Under the pieces are notes generated by a model, which was not told the origin of the DNA, made no database searches, and worked only from the letters and a program-made list of their open reading frames with translations. Shown piece after piece: positions 4,942 to 22,235 of a stretch of 64,000 nucleotides of DNA. The stretch is from positions 1,096,001-1,160,000 of the forward strand of contig NZ_CP117835.1 of assembly GCF_029094545.1 (NCBI RefSeq). Reading direction: 5' to 3'. The translations under genes were made by a program, and so were the position numbers. The first letter of the stretch is position 1. Each line of letters opens with the position of its first letter. The stretch is from Alkalihalophilus pseudofirmus. Lineage in GTDB: Bacteria > Bacillota > Bacilli > Bacillales > Bacillaceae_D.

Positions 4942-6177
4942 ATGGACTTTTTTTTCAGTGAAAAAGTAAAGCGCTTACAACAAGAATTGACATCATTTAT
5001 GGACGAACATATCTATCCGAATGAATTGTTGTTTGAAGAACAACTAAATCAATTGCCAGATAGATTTTCTGGAAATCCACAGGTTATGGAAGAGTTAAAA
5101 GCAAAAGCGAAAGAAGCTGGATTGTGGAACTTGTTTTTGCCAGACGCAAAAGAAGGAGCAGGGCTGACAAACTTAGAATATGCTCCGCTTTGTGAGATTA
5201 TGGGCCGTTCATTTATCGCACCTGAGGTGTTTAATTGTAACGCCCCTGATACAGGGAATATGGAAGTTCTGGTGAGGTATGGCACAGAACAGCAGAAAGC
5301 TCTCTGGCTGAGGCCTTTGCTTGATGGTGATATCCGTTCTGCATTTGCAATGACAGAGCCTGATGTCGCTTCATCTGATGCAACCAATATTTCGATTGAT
5401 ATTCAATCTGATGGAGATGAATACGTTATAAACGGTCGTAAATGGTGGTCATCTGGAGCGGGAGATCCGCGCTGCAAAGTCCTTATTCTAATGGGTAAAA
5501 CCAATCCCCATGCCGACAGACATAAGCAGCAGTCAATGATCATTGTTCCGATGGACACTAAAGGGGTAAAGATTAAGAGGATGCTGCCGGTCTTTGGGTA
5601 TGACCATGCCCCGCATGGACACGCTGAAATTGAGTTTACAAATGTAAGAGTGCCAAAGTCTAATCTTCTTTTAGGTGAGGGGCGAGGGTTTGAAATTGCT
5701 CAAGGAAGACTAGGGCCTGGGAGGATTCACCATTGTATGAGGACAATTGGTGCAGCTGAACGAGCACTAGAATTAATGTGTGAAAGAGCTGTCAAAAGAA
5801 CTCCTTTTGGCAAGCCTCTAGCAAAGCAAGGTGTCGTGGGAGAATGGATCGCAACCTCTAGGATTGAGATTGAACAGGCGAGGCTTCTGACATTAAAAGC
5901 AGCCTCGATGATGGATACAGTTGGAAATAAAGTAGCGAAAAAAGAAATTGCAATGATTAAAGTGATTGCCCCTCAAATGGCGCTCAGAGTGATTGACCGC
6001 GCCATACAAGCTTTCGGTGCAGCTGGTGTGAGCGAGGATGTTCCGCTCGCCGCGATGTATGCCAATATTCGTACGCTAAGAATTGCAGATGGGCCGGATG
6101 AAGTCCATCTAGCAGCAATTGCTAAGCAAGAGTTAAAATCGTACTTACAATCACCTATTACTGTTGGGGAGGAATAA
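4942..6177 (+). CDS. ACAD11-like acyl-CoA dehydrogenase
   Basis: 411 aa FAD flavoprotein of the acyl-CoA dehydrogenase fold. Long stretches resemble the C-terminal domain of vertebrate ACAD10/11 (from memory): [77 protein letters not shown]. Where ordinary members have a catalytic Glu in an EGT loop, this one has DGPDEVH with Asp383. In the ACAD10/11 and LvaC pathways such enzymes process 4-phosphorylated acyl-CoA into an enoyl- or 3-hydroxyacyl-CoA. ATG 4942 sits about 8 bases after GAGG; GTG 4933 lies inside the SD. It is followed 3 bp later by the CoA ligase. Function in 4-hydroxy acid breakdown is inferred from the kinase gene at 12.5 kb. Confidence 0.85.
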
Positions 6178-6180
6178 GAG

Positions 6181-7824
6181 ATGGATAAACGTTGGCTTGC
6201 TTTATATGAGAATAATTTAGAGGCGAAATCTACCATTGAGAAAAGAACCTTAACTGACTTATTAAACGATACAGCTAACAAACATGGAACGAATACGGCT
6301 ATTACCTTTTACGGGAAAACGTGGTCGTATCAGGAGCTCCAAAAATATAGTGAAGTATTAGCAGGTGCGCTGCATCAAGATCAGTTTGATAAAGGGGATC
6401 GTCTAGCGATCATGCTGCCAAACTGTCCACATTATCTATTCTCATTATTTGGTACATTTCGCGCAGGCGGCGTGGTTGTCCAAGTAAACCCAATGTATGT
6501 TGCCAGGGAGCTTGAGTATATTTTAAATGACTCTGAAGCAACCCATATTGTGATTCTCTCAGATTTATATCCTCTGTTTAAATCAGTCCGCGATAAAGTA
6601 CCAACTAAAAAAGCAGTTGTTGTTGCTCTTAAGCCGGATGCAGAGGTGGAGATTGAGGGTGATGACATCTTGTTTGATTCCTATTTGAAAGGAGCATCTG
6701 CACCGGCGCCACAACACTCTCTTGATCCTGAAGTGGACCTTGCTGTATTGCAATATACAGGGGGAACGACTGGCGTATCAAAAGGGGTTATGCTCACTCA
6801 TATGAACCTCATCTCTAATACAGAGCAAACATATGACTTCATGTTTAGCGGGGATGTTAGCCCTCCTCATAATGCAAAGGTGGTTAATGTTCTGCCATTA
6901 TTTCATATCTTCAGCTTGACCTGCTGTAACTTTGTCACGATCCGTCATGGAGGAAATCAGATACTCATTCCACGTTTTGACATGCCTGAAGTACTAGAGA
7001 CGATTAAACGTGAAAAGCCGTTTCAATTTGGGGGCGTGCCAACGATGTATGTCGGCTTTAACCAAGTTGGGAAGTATAAAGAATTTGGTTTAGATCTAGT
7101 TGAAAGCTATGTCAGCGGGGGATCATCCTTACCAGTAGAAGCACTTGAAGCTTTTGAAGCAGGAACAGGAAGAAAGCTTTGTGAAGGGTACGGGCTCAGT
7201 GAAGCAGCACCGGTTACTCACTTTAATCCTTCGTTCCAAGAAAGAAAAGCAGGTAGTGTCGGTATACCTCTTCCAAACACAGATGCGAAAGTGGTTGCTG
7301 AAACGGATGCAGGATGGGAAGAAGTTGGCGTTGGTGAAGTGGGAGAAATGATTATCAAAGGGCCGCAAGTGATGAAGGGGTACTGGAGAAAGCCTGAAGA
7401 AACGAAGAAAACGCTGAGAGATGGCTGGCTCTTCACTGGTGATTTAGCGAAAATGGATGAAGAAGGATATTTCAGCATAGTCGACCGTAAGAAAGATATG
7501 ATTCTAGCAAGCGGCTATAATGTCTACCCGCGTGAAATTGAAGAAGTCCTCTATGGGCATTCCGGGGTTCAAGAAGTCATAGTACTAGGTCTGCCGGACC
7601 CTTACAGAGGAGAAACAGTGAAAGCCTATATCACTCCTAAGCCTGATAGTACTCTAACAAGCCAGGAGATCATTGAGTTCTGCAGAAAACAAATGGCAGC
7701 ATATAAAGTACCGACAGCAGTTGAATTCCGTGATGAACTGCCAAAATCAGCTGTAGGAAAGCTGTTAAAGCGAAAGCTTCGTGATGAAGAGGTAGCAAAA
7801 GTAAAAGCGGAACAGTCGTCTTAA
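6181..7824 (+). CDS. Long-chain fatty-acid-CoA ligase-like enzyme
   Basis: 547 aa ANL-superfamily acyl-CoA synthetase that activates a carboxylic acid to its CoA thioester via an acyl-AMP. Motifs in order: AMP-binding loop YTGGTTGVSKGV (about residue 198), YGLSEAAPVTHFNP (A5), GDLAKMDEEGYFSIVDRKKDMI (A7-A8 hinge) and the catalytic lysine region PKSAVGKLLKRKLR near the C-terminus. No membrane segment. It overlaps nothing but follows the ACAD11-like gene by 3 bp, so the two are co-transcribed. Chain-length preference cannot be read; given the neighbours, a 4-hydroxy or 4-keto acid is plausible, playing the part of LvaE. Confidence 0.88.
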   Translation: MDKRWLALYENNLEAKSTIEKRTLTDLLNDTANKHGTNTAITFYGKTWSYQELQKYSEVLAGALHQDQFDKGDRLAIMLPNCPHYLFSLFGTFRAGGVVVQVNPMYVARELEYILNDSEATHIVILSDLYPLFKSVRDKVPTKKAVVVALKPDAEVEIEGDDILFDSYLKGASAPAPQHSLDPEVDLAVLQYTGGTTGVSKGVMLTHMNLISNTEQTYDFMFSGDVSPPHNAKVVNVLPLFHIFSLTCCNFVTIRHGGNQILIPRFDMPEVLETIKREKPFQFGGVPTMYVGFNQVGKYKEFGLDLVESYVSGGSSLPVEALEAFEAGTGRKLCEGYGLSEAAPVTHFNPSFQERKAGSVGIPLPNTDAKVVAETDAGWEEVGVGEVGEMIIKGPQVMKGYWRKPEETKKTLRDGWLFTGDLAKMDEEGYFSIVDRKKDMILASGYNVYPREIEEVLYGHSGVQEVIVLGLPDPYRGETVKAYITPKPDSTLTSQEIIEFCRKQMAAYKVPTAVEFRDELPKSAVGKLLKRKLRDEEVAKVKAEQSS

Positions 7825-7898
7825 AACGAAGGTTGAGGCTGGGGCAAAAGTATGTTTACTAATAGGACTACGAACGTTACAGATGCGGCCTATGTATC

Positions 7899-7984
7899 CC
7901 GCTCCTGAAATATGCTTCGCTTTTCGTGTGGAGCTGGTGAGCTTTCTCGGGCTTGGCCTTATAGGATCTCATACTTGCTCTAGT
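7899..7984 (+). repeat. Intergenic repeat, copy A1
   Basis: Starts CCGCTCCTGAAATATGCTTC and ends TTGCTCTAGT. It matches copy A2 over about 85 bp with a handful of substitutions; the central GGGC stem is partly degraded here (GGGCTTGGCCTT). Confidence 0.85.
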
Positions 7985-8027
7985 CAACGAACTGAAAAGC
8001 TTTGATACATTGGTTATAGCTTACTCG

Positions 8028-8114
8028 CCGCTCCTGAAATATGCTTCGCTTTCCGTGTGGAGCTGGTGAGCTTCCTCGGGCTTTTGCCCTGTGGGATCTC
8101 ACCCCTGCTCTAGT
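8028..8114 (+). repeat. Intergenic repeat, copy A2
   Basis: Direct repeat of copy A1. The core CCTCGGGCTTTTGCCCTG can form a GGGC-TTTT-GCCC hairpin and continues GTGGGATCTCAC. Confidence 0.85.
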
Positions 8115-8161
8115 ACACACAGGAGTCTACGCATATTTCATCCGCTAGGTTAGTGCTTTTC

Positions 8162-8185
8162 CAGAAATGTAGTGGAATGATGTAG
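8162..8185 (+). repeat. 24-bp dispersed element, copy 1
   Basis: Begins CAGAAATGTAGTGGAATG. An exact 24-bp copy lies at 63944-63967, same orientation. Confidence 0.85.
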
Positions 8186-8289
8186 GAAGTGAGCTCAGTT
8201 CTAATGATAATTGTGTCAACTGCCGCACGGTATTTAAGGTTTAGAAGCTGCTTATAAAAATGGTAGTACTATACAACATCCTCATCAGT

Positions 8290-8412
8290 TGATTGGAGCG
8301 GAAGACACCGACTCCAGCGGGATGTGCGTGATTAGGGAGACCCCACAGGGCGAAAGCCCGAGGAGGCTTCTGGGCCGCCCGCAGTAAGCGAGTGTCTGCA
8401 GCGGAAATCAAC
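8290..8412 (-). repeat. Intergenic repeat, copy B (inverted relative)
   Basis: On the minus strand it contains CCTCGGGCTTTCGCCCTG then GTGGGGTCTC, the same core as copy A2. Its outer ends are complementary: GGAGCGGAAGACACCGACTC near the left end and GTGTCTGCAGCGGAAATC near the right belong to a repeat type common between genes in Bacillaceae (from memory). Confidence 0.75.
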
Positions 8413-8570
8413 AACTACTGGTGGGGGGACTATTTCAGGGGGGCTCCTTATACCTGCTATAAGATCTACGTATATTTGCTCTTCTAAATTAGTGGTTTGT
8501 TCCAATCCTAAGTTAAACACTTTATTTGTGACCTAGTCTCAGTCAAATTTAACATGAAGGTGTGAAGTGT

Positions 8571-9344
8571 ATGAATGCATTATCTCTATTTGATTTGAAA
8601 GGAAAAACAGCAATTGTAACAGGCGGCGGTCGCGGCCTGGGTAAACAAATGGCTCATGCATTTGCTGATGCAGGAGCAAACCTAGTTTTATGCTCAAGAA
8701 AAGTAGAGGCATGCAATGAAGTGGCAGAAGAATTAAAAGCTAAAGGTGTAAACGCCATTGCCGCTGCATGTGATGTAACAAGTAAAGAAGACGTCGACCG
8801 AGTGATTAAGCAGGCAGTTGATACATTCGGCTCGATCGATATTCTTGTGAATAACAGCGGGGCAACCTGGGGAGCCCCAGCAGATGAAATGCCTCTTGAA
8901 GCGTGGAATAAAGTAATGAATGTGAATGTAACAGGCTCATTTTTAATGGCTCAAGCTGCAGGCAAAGTGATGATTAAACAACAATCAGGCAAAATCATAA
9001 ATATTGCCTCGGTAGCGGGTCTAGGCGGAGCTGATCCTCGTTTTATGGATACAATCGGCTATAACACGAGTAAAGGAGCCGTTATCACTTTTACGAAGGA
9101 TCTTGCAACAAAGTGGGGTCAATACGGCATTAATGTAAATGCTATAGCACCTGGTTTTTTCCCTACAAAAATGTCTAAAGGGCTCTTAGCTAAAGGGGAA
9201 TCCTTTGTTATTGACCGGACTCCGCTAAAACGTCTAGGCGGTGAGCAGGATCTGCAAGGGGCTGCGTTATTTTTAGCTTCAGCAGCTTCAAACTTTGTCA
9301 CTGGTGAAGTGATCGTAGTTGATGGCGGGATGCACGCGATGTAA
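8571..9344 (+). CDS. SDR-family oxidoreductase
   Basis: 257 aa classical short-chain dehydrogenase/reductase. TGGGRGLGK cofactor loop (about residues 15-23), NNSG, a catalytic Ser in the NIASVAG strand, YNTSK catalytic Tyr-Lys, and the C-terminal TGEVIVVDGG. An Arg follows the NLVLCS strand, hinting at NADP(H). Because the cluster contains a 4-hydroxyacyl-type kinase, this enzyme could interconvert 4-keto and 4-hydroxy acyl-CoA, as LvaD does; gluconate 5-dehydrogenase-like polyol enzymes look similar. ATG 8571 follows GAAGGTGTG by about 8 bases; GTG 8562 is in the SD. The next SDR starts 12 bp after its stop. Confidence 0.85.
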   Translation: MNALSLFDLKGKTAIVTGGGRGLGKQMAHAFADAGANLVLCSRKVEACNEVAEELKAKGVNAIAAACDVTSKEDVDRVIKQAVDTFGSIDILVNNSGATWGAPADEMPLEAWNKVMNVNVTGSFLMAQAAGKVMIKQQSGKIINIASVAGLGGADPRFMDTIGYNTSKGAVITFTKDLATKWGQYGINVNAIAPGFFPTKMSKGLLAKGESFVIDRTPLKRLGGEQDLQGAALFLASAASNFVTGEVIVVDGGMHAM

Positions 9345-9356
9345 GGGGTGAAGAGG

Positions 9357-10097
9357 ATGAACAAAGTAGCTTTAGTAACCGGTGGGACAGGAGGAATTGG
9401 GCAAGCAACAGCTCATTGTTTTCTTAACCAAGGAATATCTGTGGTGATCGTTGATATCGATGAGGAAAAAGGAAAGGCAGCTTGTGAGGAACTAAGTGGC
9501 AGCGGGGGAGATGTTACATTTGTTCGTTGTGACGTTTCAAATGAAGAGGAAGTAAAGAATGCATGTCAAAAAGCAGCCGAAACATATGGTCAAATAGATA
9601 TTTTAGTAAACAATGCCGGCATTGGCAATAACGAAACAACCTTAACGGAGATGTCACTTTTTGAATGGCAGAAAGTGATTGATGTGAACTTGACAGGTGT
9701 GTTTCTCGGGATGAAGCACTCGATTCCATTTATGAGGAAAAACGGCGGGGCAATTGTAAATGTTTCTAGTCTGTTAGGTTTTAAAGGGAAGAAATTTGTC
9801 GCGCCATATAATGCGTCTAAAGCTGGTGTCATTACGTTGACGAAGAATGCTGCTCTTGAATATGGAAGAGACCGTATTCGTGTAAATGCTGTTGCTCCTG
9901 GTGTGATTGACACATCTATTGTGGATGGATGGAGAACTCATGAAGAAAAATGGAAAATCATTAGCACAGCAAATGCATTAAAACGCGTAGGGGAAGCACA
10001 AGAGGTTGCACATGCAATTGAGTTTTTAGCTTCTGATAAAGCCTCATATATTACGGGTACAACGTTAATGGTGGATGGCGGAGGGCTGACGTATTAA
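9357..10097 (+). CDS. SDR-family oxidoreductase (second)
   Basis: 246 aa classical SDR: TGGTGGIGQ (about 9-17), a VDID acidic residue after the second strand that favours NAD(H), NNAG, NVSSLLG with the catalytic Ser, YNASK, and TGTTLMVDGG at the end. FabG-like in size, but located in a catabolic cluster, so a 3-hydroxyacyl-CoA or alcohol dehydrogenase role is more likely. ATG 9357 follows GGGGTGAAGAGG. It is in operon with the SDR before it. No clear terminator precedes tetR 140 bp downstream. Confidence 0.85.
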   Translation: MNKVALVTGGTGGIGQATAHCFLNQGISVVIVDIDEEKGKAACEELSGSGGDVTFVRCDVSNEEEVKNACQKAAETYGQIDILVNNAGIGNNETTLTEMSLFEWQKVIDVNLTGVFLGMKHSIPFMRKNGGAIVNVSSLLGFKGKKFVAPYNASKAGVITLTKNAALEYGRDRIRVNAVAPGVIDTSIVDGWRTHEEKWKIISTANALKRVGEAQEVAHAIEFLASDKASYITGTTLMVDGGGLTY

Positions 10098-10196
10098 TCT
10101 AATCTGCTTAAGCCTTCGAAATACTGCCTAAACATAACCGGCGGCCGCTAAATTCAAAGCCAAATGATGCAAAGATTTGGTCTGGATTGTGGTATA

Positions 10197-10214
10197 CTAA
10201 ACGGATCAGTTTAG
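10197..10214 (+). promoter_or_regulatory. Palindrome at the tetR promoter
   Basis: CTAAACGGATCAGTTTAG: 8 of 9 base pairs match across the centre. It overlaps a -10-like TATACT (10193-10198) and begins with the same ATACTAA half-site as the operators at 10834 and 18831, but with a different centre. Suggests autoregulation. Confidence 0.45.
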
Positions 10215-10236
10215 ATAGATAGTGAGGCGTTTATGA

Positions 10237-10803
10237 ATGAAAGAAAAAATTATTGAAGTTAGTATTGATTTGTTTGGCAAAAATGGTTTTACAGAAACCT
10301 CAATCCAGGATATTGTAGATGTTCTTGGTGTAACGAAAGGAACATTCTATTATTATTTTAAGAGCAAAGAAGAACTGCTGATGGAAATTCATTTGCGTTA
10401 TATAGAAGATCTATTAATGAGCCAGCGTGAGATTATTGAAAAAACAAAAACCGCTGAGGCAAGATTATTCGATATGGTCTATATGTTAATGAAACACATC
10501 GAGGGACAGGGACAAAGTGCGCGAGTATTCTTCAGGGAGATGCAGCACTTAAATGAAGAACATTTAAAAGACATCTTCAAAAAACGTGATGCATTCAGAT
10601 TGAATATGAATCAAGTTATTGCAGATGGAGTAGAGTCAGGAGAATTCCGGGAAGACCTTGATGTCAATATTGTCACACTGGCTATCTTAGGTGCGGTTAA
10701 CTGGAGTTATCATTGGTTTGACCCTAAAGGAGCTCTTGATGAGAAAGCTGTTTCTACCATCTATATTGACTTCATGTTAAATGGCTTGAAAAAGGCGTTA
10801 TAG
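10237..10803 (+). CDS. TetR/AcrR-family transcriptional regulator
   Basis: 188 aa. N-terminal helix-turn-helix about residues 5-50 (IDLFGKNGFTETSIQDIVDVLGVTKGTFYYYFKSKEEL), then an all-helical ligand domain with FREMQHLNEEH, of the type seen in KstR2/FadR-like acyl-CoA-responsive repressors. It is not closely similar to B. subtilis FadR as I remember it. ATG 10237 follows GAGG by 9 bases. It sits between the two SDR genes and the main beta-oxidation operon. It probably represses this cluster through the ATACTAAC palindromes and is released by an acyl-CoA; the ligand is inferred. Confidence 0.88.
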   Translation: MKEKIIEVSIDLFGKNGFTETSIQDIVDVLGVTKGTFYYYFKSKEELLMEIHLRYIEDLLMSQREIIEKTKTAEARLFDMVYMLMKHIEGQGQSARVFFREMQHLNEEHLKDIFKKRDAFRLNMNQVIADGVESGEFREDLDVNIVTLAILGAVNWSYHWFDPKGALDEKAVSTIYIDFMLNGLKKAL

Positions 10804-10823
10804 TCCTGTATTAGGACTTTTTA
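10802..10823 (+). terminator. Terminator overlapping tetR stop codon
   Basis: AGTCCT GTATT AGGACT followed by TTTTT. The first arm starts inside the TAG stop codon. Confidence 0.75.
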
Positions 10824-10833
10824 CGAATGTAAC

Positions 10834-10851
10834 ATACTAACTGGTTAGTAT
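10834..10851 (+). promoter_or_regulatory. TetR-type operator, copy 2 (perfect palindrome)
   Basis: ATACTAACTGGTTAGTAT is self-complementary except at the central two bases. It lies just before the ribosome site of the 3-hydroxyacyl-CoA dehydrogenase gene. Confidence 0.7.
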
Positions 10852-10870
10852 TAATGGAGGGGAGTATTAC

Positions 10871-11755
10871 ATGAACAAGTATCAAATTGAACGAATAGCA
10901 GTGATTGGAGCAGGTTCGATGGGACATCAAATTGCCATGTTATCCGCTTTAGGAGGATATGAGACCCATTTGCAGGATATCGAGCAGTCTTCGTTAGACA
11001 AAGCAAAGGAAAGTCTAGAGTTTCAAATGAGTAAATGGGTAACAAAAGATAAGATTGACGAAGCATCGCTTCAAACGGCTTTTAATCGGCTTCATTTCAC
11101 AACAGACTTAAATGCAGCTGTTCGTGAGGCTGATTTTGTGATAGAGGCTGTCGTGGAAAAACTTGATGTGAAAAAAGAGCTCTTTTCAAAGCTAGACGAA
11201 CTAACACCGCAGCATACCATTTTAGCAACGAACTCTTCAACCATTGTTAATTCGAAAATTGCTGAAGCTACCTCACGTCCAGAAAAAGTATGCAATATGC
11301 ACTTTTTCTTCCCGCCTTTAGTGATGGACTGTGTTGAGGTAGTGAAAAGTGATCTAACGTCCGATGAGACAGCTCAGGCTGCGATGGCAGTAAGTGAAAA
11401 AATGAACCGCACGGCTGTACTCCTTCATAAAGAAATCTCAGGTTTTATAGCAAATCGGATTCTCGGTGCCTTAACAAAGGAAGCTGTGGCGTTATATGAA
11501 GAAGGATATGCAAGCTTTGAGGATATTGACCTTATTTGCAAGAAAGCATTGAATCATCCAATAGGGCCTTTTGCTCTAATGGACTTATCAGGAATTGATG
11601 TAGCGTATTTTGTGAACCAGCAACGTTATGCCGAAACGAACAACCCTGAAGATTTACCGGCAAAATGTATTGAAGAAAAAGTAAAAGCAGGAGAATTAGG
11701 AAGAAAGACAGGTAAAGGCTGGTATGACTACTCTAAAAAAGAGGTGAAGAGTTAA
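10871..11755 (+). CDS. 3-hydroxyacyl-CoA dehydrogenase
   Basis: 294 aa, single-function type (PaaH/Hbd-like). Oxidises 3-hydroxyacyl-CoA to 3-ketoacyl-CoA with NAD+. Rossmann motif VIGAGSMGHQIAMLSALGGYE at about residues 11-30 with an acidic residue (DI) after it for NAD, ATNSSTI, the HFFFPP segment carrying the catalytic His, and the C-terminal helical domain (GFIANRILGALTKEAV, GLGRKTGKGWYDY-like end). GGAGGGGAG precedes ATG 10871. First gene of an eight-gene operon; its TAA overlaps the next ATG by one base (TAATG). Confidence 0.9.
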   Translation: MNKYQIERIAVIGAGSMGHQIAMLSALGGYETHLQDIEQSSLDKAKESLEFQMSKWVTKDKIDEASLQTAFNRLHFTTDLNAAVREADFVIEAVVEKLDVKKELFSKLDELTPQHTILATNSSTIVNSKIAEATSRPEKVCNMHFFFPPLVMDCVEVVKSDLTSDETAQAAMAVSEKMNRTAVLLHKEISGFIANRILGALTKEAVALYEEGYASFEDIDLICKKALNHPIGPFALMDLSGIDVAYFVNQQRYAETNNPEDLPAKCIEEKVKAGELGRKTGKGWYDYSKKEVKS

Positions 11756-12534
11756 TGGGAGCTAAAGTGAGCGTAGAAAAAGAAAAAGGATTGGCTATCG
11801 TTACAATTAATAATCCGCCTCTTAATGTGATGGATAAAGATGTGATTGCTAGTTTAAGAGATACGTTTCAACAGCTGTCGCAAGATCCTGAAACAGTCGT
11901 TGTTATTTTAACTGGGGCAGGTGATAAAGCCTTTATGGCAGGGGCAGACATTAAAGAATTTCCTCAGTTAATGGATCACCCGAACATGAAAGAACCGGTA
12001 ATGGGAACACATGCTGTGCTAAATCAAATTGACTTTTTTGAAAAGCCGACCATTGCGGTTTTAAATGGTCTCACGTTTGGCGGCGGTTGTGAGCTTGCAT
12101 TAACCTTTGATATTCGTATTGCAGAAGAGCATACACAAATCGGGCTGCCGGAAATTAAGTTAGGATTATTCCCGGGTGGAGGCGGAACACAGCGTTTGCC
12201 GCGCTTAATTGGAGAAGCGAAGGCGAAGGAGTTAATGTATACAGGAGAACCAATTGATGCAAAGACGGCGCAGCAGATCGGGCTGGTGAACCATGTCACA
12301 AAAAGCGGGGCAGGCTTAGAAAAAGCAGTCCAGATTGCTAAGCAAATTAGACGTCACTCTCTTCCGGCACTCTCATGTATTAAACGTGCGGTAGACGAAG
12401 GGATGGATATGAGCTTCCCGCAAGCGATCGAACATGAGGCCGACCTTTTTACGGAAGTTTTTCAAACGGAAGATATTAGAGAAGGAGTTAGTGCCTTTAT
12501 TGAAAAGAGAAAACCTGAATTCAAGCATCGTTAA
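11755..12534 (+). CDS. Enoyl-CoA hydratase
   Basis: 259 aa crotonase-fold enzyme adding water to 2-enoyl-CoA. Both catalytic glutamates of the hydratases are present: one in GGGCELALTFD and one in PEIKLGLFPGGGGTQRLPR. The oxyanion-hole segment AFMAGADIKEF is intact. This makes it the true hydratase of the cluster, unlike the second crotonase at 16.9 kb. Translationally coupled to the dehydrogenase before it. Confidence 0.9.
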   Translation: MGAKVSVEKEKGLAIVTINNPPLNVMDKDVIASLRDTFQQLSQDPETVVVILTGAGDKAFMAGADIKEFPQLMDHPNMKEPVMGTHAVLNQIDFFEKPTIAVLNGLTFGGGCELALTFDIRIAEEHTQIGLPEIKLGLFPGGGGTQRLPRLIGEAKAKELMYTGEPIDAKTAQQIGLVNHVTKSGAGLEKAVQIAKQIRRHSLPALSCIKRAVDEGMDMSFPQAIEHEADLFTEVFQTEDIREGVSAFIEKRKPEFKHR

Positions 12535-12546
12535 GGGGGGAGTGTG

Positions 12547-13605
12547 ATGGAACAAACGAAAGTGCCTAGGACTGGGGAGGAGCTGAATTCAAGCTCCCTC
12601 TTGGCTTATCTTAAAAAGGAAGTGAAAGATCTGCCTGAAGGGGATCTCGTCATTACTCAATTTCAAGCAGGTCATTCAAACCTCACATACTTACTTCAAA
12701 TAGGTGATTATGAAGCAGTACTTAGAAGACCGCCGATGGGGCCAGTTGCCAAGCGTGCTCATGATATGGCACGTGAATCAACGGTTATGGCAGCACTTGC
12801 TCCACATTTATCAATCATACCAAGACCGCTCCACTTTTGTTCAGACCCATCGATTATAGGTGCCCCGTTCTTTCTGATGGAACGAAAACAGGGCATTGTT
12901 CTTGATACAGAATTTCCTAGTGATCTAGAACCTACAAAAGAATTAGGCCATACCATCTCTACTCAAATGGTCGATCGGCTTGTAGACCTGCATGCTATAG
13001 ATTACAAGAAAACCAAGCTTGTAGATTTTACTAGACCTGAGGGTTTTTTAGAAAGACAGGTTCATGGCTGGATTAAACGCTATCACCAAGCTAAAACCGA
13101 TGATCATAAAGGGTTAGAAGAATTAACAGCTTATCTAGCGGACAGCATTCCAGCTTCAAAAGATACGACTGTGATCCATTACGATTATAAGCTTAACAAC
13201 GCAATGTTCTCAAAAGATGGTCAACAAATGGTAGGATTATTTGATTGGGAAATGACGACCGTCGGGGATCCGCTTTGTGATGTGGGTGTTGCTTTAAGTT
13301 ACTGGATTGAGTCTAATGATCCTGACCTTTTAAAGCGAGGCTTCGGTAAACCTCCTGTTACAGTTAATGATGGATTTTTAACGAGGAGGGACTGGGTTAG
13401 CGAGTATGCAAAAAAGAGCGGAAGAGAAGTAGAGAATATTGAATATTACTTAACATTTGCTTACTTTAAATTGGCTGTAATTGCCCAGCAGATTTACTAT
13501 CGTTATCACAAAGGGCAAACGAATGATAAGCGCTTCCAACACTTTAATCATACGGTGCAAGCTCTTATTCTTCATGGAAGGCATACGGCTAGTACTAAAT
13601 TGTAA
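12547..13605 (+). CDS. APH-fold phosphotransferase, ACAD10/11- and LvaA-like
   Basis: 352 aa aminoglycoside-phosphotransferase-fold kinase. The N-lobe begins with the family signature QAGHSNLTYLLQIGDYEAVLRRPP (about 36-60) and continues AHDMARESTVMAAL and IIGAPFFLMER. The C-lobe has catalytic loop HYDYKLNN (H211, D213, N218) and metal-binding DWE (D233) then GDPLCDVGVAL. This is the subgroup fused in front of the dehydrogenase in vertebrate ACAD10/11 and called LvaA in the levulinate pathway, where it phosphorylates the 4-hydroxyl of 4-hydroxyacyl-CoA. Not an antibiotic-resistance gene. It lies 12 bp after the hydratase; ATG 12547 follows AAGGGGGGAG. Confidence 0.85.
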   Translation: MEQTKVPRTGEELNSSSLLAYLKKEVKDLPEGDLVITQFQAGHSNLTYLLQIGDYEAVLRRPPMGPVAKRAHDMARESTVMAALAPHLSIIPRPLHFCSDPSIIGAPFFLMERKQGIVLDTEFPSDLEPTKELGHTISTQMVDRLVDLHAIDYKKTKLVDFTRPEGFLERQVHGWIKRYHQAKTDDHKGLEELTAYLADSIPASKDTTVIHYDYKLNNAMFSKDGQQMVGLFDWEMTTVGDPLCDVGVALSYWIESNDPDLLKRGFGKPPVTVNDGFLTRRDWVSEYAKKSGREVENIEYYLTFAYFKLAVIAQQIYYRYHKGQTNDKRFQHFNHTVQALILHGRHTASTKL

Positions 13606-13634
13606 TCGGGTTGAATCAGAAGGAGTGTTGATGG

Positions 13635-14390
13635 GTGACACATATACATGTGCTTCTAAAAAAAGAAGAGATTGAACCAGATAAATTAAAAGGAGAGGCA
13701 GTCATCGTTTTAGATGTTCTGCTGGCTACTTCTACAATTGCTTTAGCTTTATCTTACGGGGCCAAAGCTGTCATTCCGGTTTTAAGTGATATAGACGCTC
13801 ATAGACTCTCAGCTCAGTATCACCCAGATGAATTTGTGCTGGTCGGTGAGAAAGAAGGAAGGGTGATTGACGGTTTTCTACCGCCCAATCCATCTCTATT
13901 AAAAAGTTATGTAAAAGATAAAATAGTCATCTTAGCGACGACCAATGGAACGGTTGCATTGAACAGGTCGATTGGAGCAGAAATTATTTACCCGGCTTGC
14001 TTACGGAACGGCGAAGCAGTTACGAGAGACGTTGTTTCACATCTTAAGCCCGGGCAAAAAATTATCATTGTTTGCTCTGGTTCTTCTAATCAATTTTGTC
14101 TTGAAGATTTTTACGGTGCGGGTTACCTCATTTCTTGTTTAAGAGATCAGCTTCGGGGTCCATTCACTATAAATGATGCTGGTCTGGCAGCAGAAGTTTT
14201 ATTCCATAGTAATGCTGGAGCATACGACCTTCTCATCCAATCAGCAGTCGGTGAATTTATTTTAAGTCACGGATTTGAAGAAGATGTGATAGAGGTTGTG
14301 GAACTAGGAGTAGATCATGTTGTACCTATTTATCAGAATAAACAGATTACTAAGAAGGGAGCTGTTCGCAGTGGAACAAACAAAGCGTAA
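13635..14390 (+). CDS. ComB-family phosphatase-like protein (2-phosphosulfolactate phosphatase family)
   Basis: 251 aa. Family marks: VIVLDVLLATSTIALAL (D27), TTNGT at 102-106, CSGSSNQFCLEDFYGAGYL, and DAGLAAEVLF. ComB hydrolyses 2-phosphosulfolactate in coenzyme M synthesis, and its Bacillus relative YitC is tied to spore sulfolactate. Here no ComA partner is present and the gene sits between the acyl-CoA kinase and an acyl-CoA dehydrogenase, so a phosphorylated acyl intermediate is a more likely substrate (inference). The Arg that I recall in the family motif DVLRATSTI is Leu30 here, so activity or specificity may have changed. GTG 13635 follows AAGGAGT by 8 bases; the 3' end overlaps the next gene by 20 bp. 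Confidence 0.8.
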   Translation: MTHIHVLLKKEEIEPDKLKGEAVIVLDVLLATSTIALALSYGAKAVIPVLSDIDAHRLSAQYHPDEFVLVGEKEGRVIDGFLPPNPSLLKSYVKDKIVILATTNGTVALNRSIGAEIIYPACLRNGEAVTRDVVSHLKPGQKIIIVCSGSSNQFCLEDFYGAGYLISCLRDQLRGPFTINDAGLAAEVLFHSNAGAYDLLIQSAVGEFILSHGFEEDVIEVVELGVDHVVPIYQNKQITKKGAVRSGTNKA

Positions 14391-16134
14391 GTTAAAAGGC
14401 GGGCGCTTTTTAGTAGAGAGTATGAAAGTGGAGGATCTTTTTACACCTGAAGATCTAAATGAAGAACAAAAAATGATTGCTGAGACGGCTAGACAATTTA
14501 TTGAAAGAGAAGTAGCACCTTACCGTGAGGAGATTGAAAATCAAGACTTTGAAAAGATTGTCCAGCTTTTGAAAAAAGCAGGATCGCTTGGGCTTCTAGC
14601 ACATAGCATTCCTGAAGCGTACGGAGGGCTTGGTTTAGATAAAGTCAGTAAAGGAATCGTTGGCGAAGAGATCGGCGGGTCAAGCGGCTACGGTGTTGCC
14701 CATTCGAATCATACATGCATTGCTACCCTGCCAATTACCTACTTTGGAAATGAAAGGCAGAAGAATAAGTACTTGCCTAAGCTTGCCTCAGGTGACTATT
14801 TAGGGGCTTATTGTTTAACGGAGCCTTCATCAGGCTCAGACGCTCTCGCAGCCAAAACAACAGCAGTTCTTAATCAGGAAAAAACTCATTATATCTTAAA
14901 CGGAACGAAGCTTTATATAACGAATGCGGTGTTCTCGGATACGTTTATTGTGTATGCAAAAGTAAACGGGGATCAATTTACCGCCTTTATTTTAGAAAAA
15001 GATTTCAAAGGGCTCACCTTAGGTCCAGAAGAGCAAAAGATGGGGATTAAAGGGTCTTCTACTCGAAGCGTCATTTTAGAAGATTGCGAGGTTCCGGTTG
15101 AAAATGTGCTCGGTGAAGTTGGGAAGGGGCACGTGATTGCCTTTAATGTCTTGAACTTAGGGCGGTTTAATTTAGGGTCTGCCTGCATGGGTGCTGCTAA
15201 AGGTGCCCTAAAGCTTGCTATAGAGCATACAAACGAACGCAAGCAATTTAAAAAGCGCATCAGCGAATTTGGAATTACGAAAGAGAAAGTAGCTTTAATG
15301 GCTGCACGAATCTTTGCCGCAGAATCGCTTCAATACCGAACGGCTGACCTGCTAGAAGGCGCATTAGGTGAAATAGATGATACGCATTCTGTCGGTGAAG
15401 TTGGAAAAAGGATGATGGAATACGCGCTCGAATGTGCAATTTGTAAAGTTTATGGCTCAGAAACACTTGATTATGTTGTAGACGAATCTCTTCAGCTGCA
15501 TGGCGGGGCAGGCTTTATAAAAGAATACCCGATTGAGCAGATGTATCGCGACTCTCGTATTAACCGCATCTTTGAAGGGACCAATGAGATTAACCGACTG
15601 CTTGTTCCCGGGCTTTTCTTGAAAAAAGGAACGAAAGGAGAACTGCCTGTTCAACAAGCAATAAATCAGGCGATCGATCGTTTGAAGAAGGGGAAGCAAG
15701 AATCCTATTCAGGAATTTTAAGCAATGAGCGAGGAGTTGTTGATTCCTTGCGTACGGTTTACTTAGCTTTAGCTGGCCTTTCGTATCAGCAATTTGGTAA
15801 AGAGCTTGAGTCTGAGCAGGAAATTTTAATCAAGCTTGCAGACATTGGAATTGAGCTCTATGCCTCTGAATCAGCTGTACTAAGGGCAATTAAAAGTGAA
15901 AATGACCTTCAAGTTCAGCTTGCTACAACAGTACTAGAGTCTTCTGTCAGCCGGGTTAGAACGGCTTGTGATGAATTAGTAAATGGGATGACGGCATCAA
16001 AAGAAGTAGAAGGAATAAGGAAATTAATGAATCAGCTATTTAATGAGATTACATTCCTTGATCGAGTAGCTAGAAATCGTTCTATTGCAAGTTCTGTTAA
16101 TGAAAGTGGACGTTATATTCGTTTAGGATCTTAA
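14371..16134 (+). CDS. Acyl-CoA dehydrogenase, FadE/YusJ type
   Basis: 587 aa, matching the Bacillus FadE (YusJ) length of about 594 rather than the 380-aa class; the extra 180 residues form a C-terminal helical domain as in VLCAD. N-terminal GGRFLVESMKVEDLFTPEDL is typical. FAD/substrate motifs CLTEPSSGSDA and YITNAVFSDT, and the catalytic loop RIFEGTNEINR with Glu402, are complete, so it should do normal alpha,beta-desaturation. GTG 14371 is preferred (AAGGGAG 9 bases before); the upstream ATG at 14317 lies deep within the ComB-family gene. Confidence 0.9.
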   Translation: MEQTKRKLKGGRFLVESMKVEDLFTPEDLNEEQKMIAETARQFIEREVAPYREEIENQDFEKIVQLLKKAGSLGLLAHSIPEAYGGLGLDKVSKGIVGEEIGGSSGYGVAHSNHTCIATLPITYFGNERQKNKYLPKLASGDYLGAYCLTEPSSGSDALAAKTTAVLNQEKTHYILNGTKLYITNAVFSDTFIVYAKVNGDQFTAFILEKDFKGLTLGPEEQKMGIKGSSTRSVILEDCEVPVENVLGEVGKGHVIAFNVLNLGRFNLGSACMGAAKGALKLAIEHTNERKQFKKRISEFGITKEKVALMAARIFAAESLQYRTADLLEGALGEIDDTHSVGEVGKRMMEYALECAICKVYGSETLDYVVDESLQLHGGAGFIKEYPIEQMYRDSRINRIFEGTNEINRLLVPGLFLKKGTKGELPVQQAINQAIDRLKKGKQESYSGILSNERGVVDSLRTVYLALAGLSYQQFGKELESEQEILIKLADIGIELYASESAVLRAIKSENDLQVQLATTVLESSVSRVRTACDELVNGMTASKEVEGIRKLMNQLFNEITFLDRVARNRSIASSVNESGRYIRLGS

Positions 16135-16159
16135 CCCATTACAAAAGGATGTGTGCCGA

Positions 16160-16924
16160 TTGCAGCGTTTTCTAAATCAGATTGTACTCATATCCGGTGC
16201 AGGAAGCGGGATCGGGAAGGCTTCTGCTATTCAACTGGCAAGTGAAGGGGCAGTGGTCATCCTAGTCGGGCGCCGGAGAGAAAAATTAGAAGAGACAGCA
16301 GGTGAGATGAACAATCAACTACGTGAAGGCTGTGCGTATGTATACACTTGTGACGTCACGGTAGAAGAAGAAGTGGAATTATTAGCTGATTATGTGGAAT
16401 CTAATTTTGAGAAACTTGATGTGTTAATCAATAATGCCGGAACCTCTCAAGGCGGGGCGATTCTTTCTCTCGAAGAAGAGGATTGGAATCATGTCCAAAC
16501 AACAAATGTAACAAGTGTGTTCTTGATGTCGAAGCATTTAGGTAAATTAATGATTAAATCAGAATCCGAGAATAAAGCGATCGTTAATATTGCTTCACTT
16601 TCAGGTCATAAAGCAGGGGCAAAGATTCCAAGCTACAGTACTGCCAAGGCTGCCGTTATTCATTTAACAAAATCACTTGCAGGAGAACTTGCGCCGCATA
16701 ATGTGCGTGTCAACTCTGTTTCTCCAGGCTTTGTTGAAACCCCAATGACAGAAGATGGTTTAAAAAATCCGGCGTTTACTCAAGCGATTGAGAGACACAC
16801 GTTGCTTGGTCGTGTCGGCAGGCCCGAGGAAGTCGCCAAAACGATTGCATTTGCAGCGTCAAGTGATGCAAGCTATATCACCGGTACGGATTTATTAATA
16901 GATGGCGGCTGGTTAACCGTTTAA
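16160..16924 (+). CDS. SDR-family oxidoreductase (third)
   Basis: 254 aa. SGAGSGIGKA cofactor loop, GRRREKLEE after the second strand (Arg, NADP-like), NNAGTSQGG, catalytic Ser in NIASLSGH, YSTAK, and TGTDLLIDGGW. TTG 16160 is the likely start: AAAAGGATG precedes it by about 10 bases, while GTG 16151 touches the SD. It is the third SDR of the cluster and the only one within the main operon. Substrate unknown; a hydroxyacyl or 4-keto acyl intermediate is possible. Confidence 0.82.
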   Translation: MQRFLNQIVLISGAGSGIGKASAIQLASEGAVVILVGRRREKLEETAGEMNNQLREGCAYVYTCDVTVEEEVELLADYVESNFEKLDVLINNAGTSQGGAILSLEEEDWNHVQTTNVTSVFLMSKHLGKLMIKSESENKAIVNIASLSGHKAGAKIPSYSTAKAAVIHLTKSLAGELAPHNVRVNSVSPGFVETPMTEDGLKNPAFTQAIERHTLLGRVGRPEEVAKTIAFAASSDASYITGTDLLIDGGWLTV

Positions 16925-16940: not shown

Positions 16941-17747
16941 ATGAGTGTAGAAAGCAAAAAGAGTGTAAAAGAATACAAGGACCTTCTCGTAAAACAAGAA
17001 AGCGGGGTATTGGAGATTACATTAGACCGGCCGAATGCCTTGAATGCATTTAGCCCGGAAATGATTCTAGGCATCGAAGAAGCTCTCCTAAATGCAGAGA
17101 GGGACCAAGAGGTAAAAGTAATCGTGCTGCGCGGAAGTGGCCGTGCTTTTAGTGCTGGCGGTGATGTGAAGACGATGGGAGAGGCAGCACCGGTTGACGT
17201 GTATAACCATATCGGCCATTTAAATGAGCTGATTAAGCAGATGAGATCACTTGAGAAGCCGATTATCGCCGCAGTACATGGTTTTGCTGCCGGAGCTGGA
17301 TTTAATTTGGCTCTTGCCTGCGATTTGATTGTTGCAGCAGAAGATACTTCATTCATCTTAAGCTTTGCACAAGTCGGTCTCGTTTCAGATGGCGGGGGGC
17401 ATTACTTCCTTCCAAAATCTTTATCACCGTATCAAGCGAAAGAGCTCTTGTTTAGGGCCGAACCGCTCAATGCAAAAACAGCCCAGCAATGGGGCTTGGT
17501 TAATCATGTCTATCCTTTGGCTGAAATGGAGGAGAAGGTTCGTGAATATGCACTATCTTTCACGCAGCGTCCTACAAAAGCGATTGGTTTAATGAAAAAG
17601 CTAACCAACCTGGCTGATACGACCTCCTTAACGGATGTACTTGAGGCAGAACGAACAACACAAGCGATGATGGTCACCACACATGACCACCAAGAAGGTG
17701 TTGCAGCTTTTATAGAAAAACGCAGACCCAAATTTAAAGGGAAATAA
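16941..17747 (+). CDS. Enoyl-CoA hydratase/isomerase, PaaG-like
   Basis: 268 aa crotonase-fold protein. Oxyanion segment AFSAGGDVKTM is kept, but the first hydratase Glu is replaced (AGAGFNLALACD, Asn) and the second region reads SFAQVGLVSDGGGHYFLP with Asp in place of the second Glu. This is the PaaG pattern, in which one Asp moves a double bond. It is therefore more likely an enoyl-CoA isomerase than a hydratase, which would suit a route that produces a 3-enoyl-CoA. AAAGGAGATGAG precedes ATG 16941. Confidence 0.82.
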   Translation: MSVESKKSVKEYKDLLVKQESGVLEITLDRPNALNAFSPEMILGIEEALLNAERDQEVKVIVLRGSGRAFSAGGDVKTMGEAAPVDVYNHIGHLNELIKQMRSLEKPIIAAVHGFAAGAGFNLALACDLIVAAEDTSFILSFAQVGLVSDGGGHYFLPKSLSPYQAKELLFRAEPLNAKTAQQWGLVNHVYPLAEMEEKVREYALSFTQRPTKAIGLMKKLTNLADTTSLTDVLEAERTTQAMMVTTHDHQEGVAAFIEKRRPKFKGK

Positions 17748-17757
17748 GGGAGGAAAA

Positions 17758-18744
17758 ATGATGAAAGCTATTCAATTTACAACCTACGGCGGACCAGAAG
17801 TATTAAAGATGGTTGAACTAGATAAGCCTAACCCAGAAGCAAACGAAGTAATCATAAAAATAGAAGCAATTGGTGTGAATTATGCAGACACAGCAAGACG
17901 TGAAGGGCAATATGTGGTACCTACTCCACTCCCGTTCGTTCCCGGTGCAGAGGTCGCTGGTATTGTTGATGAAGTTGGCAGTGATGTCAGTACGGTTAAA
18001 GCAGGAGATCGAGTCGTAACCCTATTGGGATCAAAAAAAGCGACAGGTTATGCTGAATATTCGATTGCGGATGAACGTGGATTAATGCCGATTCCTGAGG
18101 GAGTCAGCTTTGAACAAGCAGTGGCTCTTCCGCTGCAGGGGTTAAGTGCCTACCATATTTTAAAAACTATGGGGCAGCTTGAAGAAGGTGATACGGTGCT
18201 CGTTCATGCAGCAGCCGGCGGTGTAGGAACGATCGCTGTTCAACTTGCAAAGTTAATGGGTGCAGGAAAAGTCATCGCTACAGCCAGCTCGAAAGAAAAA
18301 CTTGAACTTGCTCGTGAGCTTGGAGCAGATGTACTTGTAAATTACACCGAGGATAATTGGTATGAACAAGTCCTTGAGGCTACGAACGGAAGGGGAGTTA
18401 ATGTAGCCCTTGAGATGGCAGGCGGCCGGGTATTTATTGATACCCTTAAATGCTTAGCGACCTTTGGAAGATTAGTTGTCTACGGAGTTGCAAGCGGAGA
18501 GCAAAGTCCTTTTAACCCATCTTCCTTAATGGCCCGTAACCAATCTGTCATTGGCTTTTTCTTACCACAAATTATGAGAAAGCCAAGACTCTTGCAATCA
18601 AGCATGAAAGAGCTATTAGACTATGTAGGAAGCGGACAGTTAAAGCTTCAAATTGGTGGTACGTATGCGCTTGATGAAGCGGCAAAGGTTCACCAGTTAA
18701 TGCAAGGAAGAAAGACGACAGGGAAATTAATCTTAAAGCCATAA
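17758..18744 (+). CDS. Zinc-free quinone oxidoreductase-like MDR protein
   Basis: 328 aa medium-chain dehydrogenase/reductase of the QOR type. N-terminal GroES-like domain (MKAIQFTTYGGPEVLKMVEL), then the Rossmann domain AAAGGVGTIAVQLAKLMGA with ATASSKEKLELARELGADVLVNY, which is the NADPH pattern. Zinc-ligand cysteines are absent. Likely reduces an alpha,beta-unsaturated acyl-CoA, ketone or quinone. Tandem ATGs at 17758/17761 follow GGGAGG. Last gene of the operon; a strong terminator comes 10 bp after the stop. Confidence 0.82.
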   Translation: MMKAIQFTTYGGPEVLKMVELDKPNPEANEVIIKIEAIGVNYADTARREGQYVVPTPLPFVPGAEVAGIVDEVGSDVSTVKAGDRVVTLLGSKKATGYAEYSIADERGLMPIPEGVSFEQAVALPLQGLSAYHILKTMGQLEEGDTVLVHAAAGGVGTIAVQLAKLMGAGKVIATASSKEKLELARELGADVLVNYTEDNWYEQVLEATNGRGVNVALEMAGGRVFIDTLKCLATFGRLVVYGVASGEQSPFNPSSLMARNQSVIGFFLPQIMRKPRLLQSSMKELLDYVGSGQLKLQIGGTYALDEAAKVHQLMQGRKTTGKLILKP

Positions 18745-18880: not shown

Positions 18881-19747
18881 GTGGTGGATCTTTTTTTTCA
18901 GCAGATTTTAAACGGACTCACTATTGGAAGCGTTTACAGTCTGGTTGCATTAGGATTGACGCTAGTTTTTGGAATATTGCATGTACCTAATTTTGCCCAC
19001 GGCGCACTTTATATGGTAGGAGCCTACATTGCTTTGACCGTCATGACAGCACTTGGGGTGCATTACTGGATTGGTTTAATTATTGCCGTCATTGTGATCG
19101 CTTTGTTATCTGTTTTAATGGAGCGTCTTGTATTTAGTCGTCTGGATTCGAAAGACCCTTTACCAATTATGATTGCTTCCATCGGTATTCTGTTTTTCCT
19201 TGAATCTTTCGCTCAATATATGTGGGGAAGCCAGTACCAGCGAATGGTTACACCGTATGGGGATACGATTCAGATCTTCGGCCTAACTGTTACGATGCAG
19301 CGTTTATTGGTCATCATAGCTGCTGTGGCCCTAATGTATGCTCTCCATCTGTTCTTAACAAAAACGATGACTGGAGCAGCGATTATCGCTATGTCACAAA
19401 GTAAAAATGGTGCTTTTCTTGTTGGAATTAATGCCACACGGGTATCGATGTTAACCTTTGCGATTGCAGGCGGTTTAGCTGCTGCCGCAGCAACTCTTGC
19501 AGCTCCAATTAATCTAGTCTTTCCAAGTATGGGGAACTTGGTGATCATGAAGGCGTTCGTCATTATTATTATTGGCGGAATGGGCAGCATACCAGGCGCA
19601 ATTATTGGAGGTTATATTCTAGGTATGGCCGAGAGTCTCGGGGCAACGTATATATCTGGAGATTACAAAGATTTAATTGCTTTCGTTCTTCTTGTGTTGA
19701 TCTTAACGATGAAGCCAAACGGGTTATTTGCAAAGGGGGTTAAGTGA
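18881..19747 (+). CDS. livH: Branched-chain-type ABC transporter permease, LivH family
   Basis: 288 aa with about eight membrane helices. Family signatures: QQILNGLTIGSVYSLVALGLTLVFGILHVPNFAHGALYM at the N-terminus and the GGMGSIPGAIIGGYILGMAESL loop that contacts the ATPase. Tandem GTGs at 18881/18884 follow AGGGGGAG. First gene of a five-gene importer operon. Liv-type importers move branched-chain amino acids but also amides, aromatic and other carboxylic acids, and the link to acyl-CoA genes favours a carboxylate (inference). Confidence 0.88.
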   Translation: MVDLFFQQILNGLTIGSVYSLVALGLTLVFGILHVPNFAHGALYMVGAYIALTVMTALGVHYWIGLIIAVIVIALLSVLMERLVFSRLDSKDPLPIMIASIGILFFLESFAQYMWGSQYQRMVTPYGDTIQIFGLTVTMQRLLVIIAAVALMYALHLFLTKTMTGAAIIAMSQSKNGAFLVGINATRVSMLTFAIAGGLAAAAATLAAPINLVFPSMGNLVIMKAFVIIIIGGMGSIPGAIIGGYILGMAESLGATYISGDYKDLIAFVLLVLILTMKPNGLFAKGVK

Positions 19748-19748
19748 T

Positions 19749-22198: not shown

Positions 22199-22235
22199 GA
22201 TTTCGATAGATATCAAAAAAATGGGGGAATGAAAA

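Follow-up and report, generated by a model that had tools for sequence, protein, structure and literature searches.

A kinase-linked ComB-like gene in a putative 4-hydroxy acid degradation cluster of Alkalihalophilus pseudofirmus

We analyzed a 64,000-nucleotide stretch of Alkalihalophilus pseudofirmus DNA (contig NZ_CP117835.1; hereafter the window, G000:C1:1096001-1160000, within a 4.24 Mb genome) that carries a cluster of acyl-CoA metabolism genes, all on the plus strand. The new element of this locus is a ComB-like gene of the PF04029 family (13635-14390), a 2-phosphosulfolactate phosphatase by family name, which begins 30 bases past the last base of a putative 4-hydroxyacyl-CoA kinase gene of the ACAD10/11-LvaA type (12547-13605). 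The initial annotation of this DNA had overlooked this gene, along with a Liv-type ABC importer and another cluster, paralogous to this one, in a different part of the genome. On balance, we favor the reading that the locus is a catabolic cluster for exogenous 4-hydroxy acids, possibly derived from 4-keto acids or lactones, in which the kinase has the ComB-like protein as a dedicated partner, most likely a phosphatase acting on 4-phospho intermediates.

The link between the two genes extends across the order. A total of 219 genomes were searched for the kinase (E up to 1e-60) and, by alignment, for the ComB-like subfamily; both genes were present in 85 genomes, the kinase alone in 15, the ComB-like gene alone in one and neither in 118. 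The subfamily thus occurs in 85 of 100 kinase genomes versus 1 of 119 kinase-free genomes. Among the 122 kinase genes, 72 have a ComB-like gene within 200 bp and 81 within 10 kb, and the same numbers of the 91 ComB-like genes lie within these distances of a kinase. Only one of 28 weaker PF04029 matches lies near a kinase, and it is a remnant of the kinase-linked type (a 56-residue match). When a single genome was kept per family (n=24), the ComB-like gene was found in 12/14 kinase genomes and 0/10 others (p 7e-5), and in the window's own family in 7/7 and 0/29, respectively. A tree of 91 kinases requires at least 10 changes of the ComB-like label across supported branches, which suggests many gains or losses of the pair, with the reservation that some loci labeled "none" are on short contigs. 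It is also present in two loci of Rubrobacter, a member of another phylum (L093 and L094).

Examination of the protein itself separates it from the sulfolactate enzyme. The solved ComB proteins (1vr0, 2yyv and 2z0j) share the motif D-x-[LI]-R-A-T-[ST], and the window protein has Leu30 (codon 13722-13724) at the Arg position of ComB's DxLRATS. In 72 distinct PF04029-type sequences, taken from kinase loci and 60 related genomes, this column contains Leu, Phe, Met or Ile in 61 sequences, Arg in nine and Ser in two; all 61 stem from kinase loci apart from those of genomes G051 and G041, in which the kinases lie on different contigs. Nearly all members of either group retain the other conserved positions (D27, E72, T103-N104-G105, N125 and D158). 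Structure prediction (mean pLDDT 91.6) gives a model that matches 1vr0 with a TM-score of 0.88 by query and 0.94 by target length, and TM-scores to the three ComB structures range from 0.78 to 0.88 by query length. Our guess is that the Arg contacts the sulfonate of the ComB substrate. Gene neighborhoods divide along the same line. Within the 60 genomes, 19 of 21 kinase-type PF04029 genes have a kinase within 10 kb and none has ComA beside it; none of the 11 others (a remnant in G037 omitted) is near a kinase and eight are beside ComA. ComA was not found in the window's genome, and it is also absent from 15 of 19 genomes with a ComB-like gene. Given the lack of ComA in the genome and this clean split of the two PF04029 types by neighbor, the window gene does not look like a sulfolactate gene, and a ComB role for 13635-14390 was rejected. 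Among the nine Arg-type sequences, eight stand beside ComA (G007, G010, G012, G015, G027, G029, G035 and G039; not G054), and these are probably the true sulfolactate pairs.

The chemistry of the cluster is indicated by its two central enzymes, which the initial annotation had identified as an ACAD11-like dehydrogenase and an APH-fold kinase of the kind fused in vertebrate ACAD10/11; both assignments were borne out. The best solved relatives of the dehydrogenase (4942-6177) are ACAD11 (8v3u, E 1.5e-149; 2wbi, 1.7e-148) and 4hr3 (5.4e-140), followed by a drop to about 1e-41 for ordinary short-chain acyl-CoA dehydrogenases (501 bits to ACAD11 versus at most 146 bits to these). Its residues R256, R261, H264, C265, M266, R267 and D383 align with R626, R631, H634-R637 (HCMR) and D753 of mouse ACAD11, with residue numbers and roles taken from PMC12440821 and the structure chain numbered one lower, an offset that we inferred. 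The sequence hallmarks of the ACAD10/11-LvaC type are therefore present, namely HCMR (5731-5742), the upstream Arg (R626) and the catalytic Asp (D753; codon 6088-6090) replacing Glu. Here and below, statements on published systems draw on portions of PMC12440821, PMC11342911 and PMC6692424.

For the kinase (PF01636; catalytic Asp codon 13183-13185), the closest solved entry is the bacterial protein 9o56 (E 7.2e-129, 433 bits), which is listed without a function, and the closest characterized one is the ACAD11 kinase domain (5.2e-41, 144 bits), followed by 3dxp (1.5e-34, 123 bits). The next solved matches have E-values of 2.6e-10 and, for antibiotic kinases, 7e-4 or worse, and all others listed score below 45 bits. 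Grouping with choline or sugar kinases had been named beforehand as an outcome that would speak against the assignment; neither is among the 10 solved-protein matches listed (E up to 1), and such an identity was ruled out to the extent that sequence comparison with solved structures allows, the ACAD11 kinase domain being far closer. NCBIfam models gave weak matches to APH(3'), homoserine and thiamine kinases (19-26 bits, far under their cut-offs). R76, R170, D213 and N218 correspond to R86, R176, D220 and N225 of ACAD11, which are tied to catalysis and CoA binding (PMC12440821), and are invariant across 22 aligned kinases. In the 60 related genomes, an ACAD11-type gene (E up to 1e-90) occurs in 20 of 21 with a strong kinase match (E<1e-80) and in none of the 39 others, and 21 of 25 strong kinase genes have one within 15 kb. 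Across 80 kinase loci, HCMR is found in 60 of 64 acyl-CoA dehydrogenase candidates, and DGPD[EQ]VH in 60. Since family membership and the active-site residues of both enzymes match, phosphorylation of the 4-hydroxyl of an acyl-CoA and elimination of the phosphate to yield a 2-enoyl-CoA is a well-supported prediction; the substrate class, including 4-keto acids and lactones, is suggested by analogy with characterized pathways.

The pathway proposed by the initial annotation is thus well supported in its kinase and elimination chemistry, but the "split" arrangement it emphasized is not new, because separate kinase and dehydrogenase genes are the known bacterial arrangement. In the lva operon of Pseudomonas putida (LvaA-LvaE), lvaA and lvaC are separate genes, and in Burkholderia separate orthologues each replaced the matching ACAD10 domain in vitro (PMC11342911). 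The window cluster resembles the lva operon in having kinase, acyl-CoA dehydrogenase, short-chain dehydrogenase/reductase (SDR) and ligase as separate genes. It differs in including the ComB-like gene, a TetR regulator, an ABC importer and beta-oxidation genes, and in that no LvaB-like gene was seen, although similarity to LvaB was not searched. ACAD10 and ACAD11 share with the window proteins the kinase and dehydrogenase active-site residues and probably the same two reactions, and ACAD10 likewise has an extra phosphatase-superfamily part, a fused HAD domain, beside its kinase. Here, in contrast, the genes are separate and the extra protein has a ComB-like fold that keeps the family-conserved residues except one Arg.

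In the favored reading, the Liv-type importer would take up the acid and the ligase would convert it to its acyl-CoA, yielding 4-hydroxyacyl-CoA; one of the SDR enzymes (SDR1) would perhaps interconvert 4-keto and 4-hydroxy forms. The kinase would then form 4-phosphoacyl-CoA, from which the ACAD11-type enzyme would eliminate phosphate to give 2-enoyl-CoA for the hydratase and 3-hydroxyacyl-CoA dehydrogenase, with FadE serving further rounds. As the dehydrogenase itself removes the phosphate by elimination (PMC12440821, PMC11342911), a phosphatase would be dispensable for the forward route. The ComB-like protein would instead hydrolyze 4-phosphoacyl-CoA that is backed up or of the wrong configuration, or the dead-end free 4-phosphoacid left after loss of the thioester, and return 4-hydroxy acid to the ligase, thereby limiting the phosphate-bearing intermediate. 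Free 4-phosphohexanoate does arise in cells, according to the authors likely via hydrolysis of the CoA ester (PMC11342911). The genomic link to the kinase is observed directly, and both the phosphatase activity and its substrate are what we infer from it.

A phosphatase of another fold occupies the same position elsewhere. The kinase gene of Deinococcus radiodurans and Azospirillum is followed by one for a histidine phosphatase. Relatives of the kinase are widespread, with 247 plasmid records containing one at E up to 1e-20; a phylum-wide search found the kinase in 4 of 149 genomes, including that of the window. A tblastn search with such a histidine phosphatase as query matched 41 plasmid records (E <= 1e-10). 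In 37 that were checked, this gene is within 1 kb of the kinase in 30 (20 of 22 by coordinates and 10 of 15 by fetched loci), and these span Alpha-, Beta- and Gammaproteobacteria, Deinococcota and Streptomyces. Six are not within 1 kb: D. aetherius (24 kb), Haematobacter (5.7 kb), and Actibacterium, C. campinensis and two records of C. metallidurans, in which no kinase lies within the 3 kb fetched; one is indeterminate because the gene is at the record start. No match to the histidine phosphatase was found in the 80 kinase loci, which are mostly from Bacillota. In the D. aetherius locus (L235 2986-4688), the histidine phosphatase gene directly precedes one for an alpha/beta hydrolase, which shares 39% identity with that beside the ComB-like gene in L218 (see below).

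The presence of three unrelated phosphatase folds beside one kinase type is striking. It is conceivable, at somewhat less than an even chance in our estimation, that these kinases have acquired phosphatase partners recurrently, on at least three occasions and drawing on unrelated folds, as a built-in repair cycle that spares CoA and phosphate from being trapped in 4-phosphoacyl-CoA and 4-phosphoacids. The partners would be, in Bacillota and Rubrobacter, the ComB-like protein with an altered substrate pocket; in Pseudomonadota, Deinococcota and Streptomyces, the histidine phosphatase; and in vertebrates, the HAD domain fused in ACAD10, now a brake there. We call the recruitment recurrent rather than obligate because the histidine phosphatase was matched in only 41 of the 247 plasmid records with a kinase.

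Several points weigh against the dedicated-phosphatase reading. Of the 100 kinase genomes, 15 lack the ComB-like subfamily, and no ComB-like gene appears in the locus DNA of 40 of 80 kinase loci (some are on short contigs), so the gene is not essential. Two of the 91 ComB-like genes are fragments with internal stops. In the 219 genomes, the subfamily was called by score (at least 137 bits, the next match scoring 88) and not by reading the motif, and relatedness inflates the co-occurrence counts, phylogeny being addressed only by the one-genome-per-family and single-family counts. Outside Bacillota, within the plasmid records searched, the pairing is far from general, as the same 41 of 247 indicates, a figure that comes from a single query and includes many distant kinases (E <= 1e-20). 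Dephosphorylating the main intermediate would also waste ATP, given that elimination already frees the phosphate. Finally, by analogy, the HAD domain of ACAD10, a brake with negligible phosphatase activity, would favor a regulatory role.

The alternatives differ in how well they survive. One, to which we give a substantial but clearly minority weight, retains the chemistry and changes the substrate: a longer hydroxylated or cyclic acid would undergo FadE-type beta-oxidation until its hydroxyl reaches C4, and the kinase and ACAD11-type enzyme would clear the block. The operon does contain a VLCAD-type FadE, two crotonases and several SDRs, and conversion of ricinoleic acid to a 4-hydroxy C10 acid in microorganisms is mentioned in the discussion of PMC12440821. 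However, FadE (at least 50% identity) is found in just 24 of 80 related loci and is not among the open reading frames (ORFs) of the paralogous cluster.

For the ComB-like protein itself, the main rival makes it a subunit or brake that serves the kinase without catalysis, comparable to LvaB or the ACAD10 HAD domain; we consider this clearly the less likely reading, though these two parallels keep it alive. LvaB binds LvaA and is required in P. putida (PMC6692424). Dephosphorylation was first considered for the HAD domain, which proved to have negligible activity and to restrain the kinase, limiting accumulation of the phospho-intermediate (PMC11342911). The loss of the conserved Arg to a hydrophobic residue would fit such a role. 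The putative levulinate cluster of Pseudomonas citronellolis LA18T is a further parallel, since a phosphatase-family gene adjoins its lvaA homologue and no lvaB is described there in the portion of PMC6692424 used; its phosphatase, however, belongs to the histidine phosphatase family, unrelated to ComB. Against a pure scaffold stands the near-invariant retention of the other conserved positions listed above, which would be unusual, and the occurrence of unrelated phosphatase folds in one slot is most simply explained by catalysis. In G041, moreover, the ComB-like gene is 3 kb from an ACAD11-type gene on a contig without a kinase match.

It is far less probable that the phosphatase performs a productive step of the main route. 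This was suggested, untested, for the P. citronellolis histidine phosphatase, which would remove the phosphate from 4-phosphovaleryl-CoA (PMC6692424), but hydrolysis gives back 4-hydroxyacyl-CoA, and both the elimination by the dehydrogenase and the Burkholderia reconstitution described above argue against it. The idea that an ordinary sulfolactate ComB lies here by chance, which has the family name and the fold in its favor, is already contradicted by the missing ComA, the neighbor counts (0/21 versus 8/11) and the kinase linkage throughout 219 genomes, and we give it next to no credence.

The remaining genes of the cluster agree with the ligase, SDR, hydratase and 3-hydroxyacyl-CoA dehydrogenase claimed as neighbors at the outset, all of which were recovered with Pfam and NCBIfam. 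The ACAD11-type gene is followed by an AMP-forming acyl-CoA ligase (6181-7824; PF00501/PF13193; 25 NCBIfam ligase models shown, all below cut-off), SDR1 (8562-9344; PF13561), SDR2 (9348-10097; PF13561), a TetR-family regulator (10237-10803; PF00440, PF17932; FadR model below cut-off), a 3-hydroxyacyl-CoA dehydrogenase (10871-11755; PF02737/PF00725) and a crotonase-type enoyl-CoA hydratase/isomerase (11755-12534; PF00378). After the kinase and the PF04029 gene come a VLCAD-type acyl-CoA dehydrogenase, FadE (14422-16134; NF058590, 793 bits versus a cut-off of 600; the start codon was picked by eye in an ORF opening at 14317), SDR3 (16151-16924; PF13561), a second enoyl-CoA hydratase/isomerase (16941-17747; PF00378), a zinc-type, quinone-oxidoreductase-like dehydrogenase (17758-18744; PF00107/PF08240) and the Liv-type ABC importer (18881-23444; two permeases, PF02653; two ATPases, PF00005; binding protein, PF13458), proposed to take up the acid. 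The window kinase is 99% identical to that of A. pseudofirmus OF4 and 96% to that of A. marmarensis, and OF4 also encodes a nearly identical ComB-like protein.

SDR1 is a candidate 4-keto/4-hydroxy oxidoreductase in an LvaD-like position, and homologues with at least 50% identity occur in 55 of 80 related loci; it is 51% identical to an SDR of the D. radiodurans cluster and 40% to that of the Caballeronia cluster. The name of its NCBIfam subfamily (NF006070, 397 bits versus a cut-off of 279), gluconate 5-dehydrogenase, does not speak for an LvaD role and may even speak against it, so that SDR1 is perhaps the LvaD equivalent, with less certainty than the kinase and dehydrogenase assignments. 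Homologues of LivH and LivK (at least 50% identity) were found in 8 of 80 related loci. Components of a Liv-type importer stand beside such clusters in several genera (L037, L051, L060, L086, L101, L105, L217 and L218) and in Sulfitobacter (L228, L232, L233 and L238), and this recurrence may point to a specific transported substrate. Neither an Rfam scan of the window nor a search for a FadR-type operator box with one consensus sequence gave any match, and an operator of that type was rejected on this basis. No LvaB-sized gene stands out, in a survey that included no LvaB similarity search; a hidden one in the ligase-SDR1 gap (7825-8561) was considered and judged unlikely, as no internal ORF there exceeds 62 amino acids and the gap carries a dispersed repeat. 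Two copies of this intergenic repeat of about 110 bases lie at 7895-8120, a stretch with 52 matches in the genome (itself included), mostly 83-96% identical.

The paralogous cluster (G000:C1:2144001-2164000; L006 2717-17598) has a ComB-like gene one gene away from its kinase. It comprises TetR, ligase, ACAD11-type, TRAP transporter, kinase, MaoC hydratase and thiolase genes (some assigned by eye); the kinase and the ACAD11-type gene are 43% and 67% identical to those of the window, and the TRAP transporter replaces the ABC importer. Similar TRAP-containing clusters were seen in Planococcus and Indiicoccus (L100, L102 and L110). The paralogous ACAD11-type protein (L006 14191-15396) reads DGPDKVH, versus DGPDEVH or DGPDQVH in the 60 candidates mentioned above.

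Two hydrolase associations were also observed. A survey of the 80 related loci for further conserved neighbors yielded one good addition, a 4HBT_2 thioesterase gene (PF13279), present in 26 of them (28 by the count of the survey itself; for example, L053 9520-9936) and mostly directly upstream of the kinase; nine of the 26 show no ComB-like gene in the locus DNA, and no such thioesterase was seen in the window cluster, so that a thioesterase-plus-phosphatase unit is suggestive only. In L217 (8953-10680), the ComB-like domain is fused to an HSL-type Abhydrolase_3 domain in one 575-amino-acid protein, and in the related L218 the two are neighboring genes, the Abhydrolase_3 gene coming after the ComB-like one. 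Abhydrolase_3 at 35% identity or more occurs in just 4 of 80 loci, and our lactone proposal is not built on it; the thioesterase and the fused hydrolase would fit recycling and a lactone or ester source, but offer only a faint hint of either.

It was only in 2024-2025 that the animal enzymes for clearing 4-hydroxy fatty acids were described, and the role of the ACAD10 HAD domain is still partly unsettled. A standalone phosphatase-like protein from bacteria in that slot can be purified and assayed, which makes the limiter of the phospho-intermediate directly testable. We found no paper linking PF04029 to the 4-hydroxyacyl-CoA pathway in the open-licence literature, where some queries were blunted by the word "comb". 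The kinase-linked proteins described here likely represent a new function for a subfamily within the 2-phosphosulfolactate phosphatase family, and, if the proposal is true, this would be, to our knowledge, the first PF04029 enzyme with a lipid-type substrate. These genes would also provide markers for the degradation of 4-hydroxy acids, levulinate and lactones in Bacillota, which may be useful for biomass-derived levulinate.

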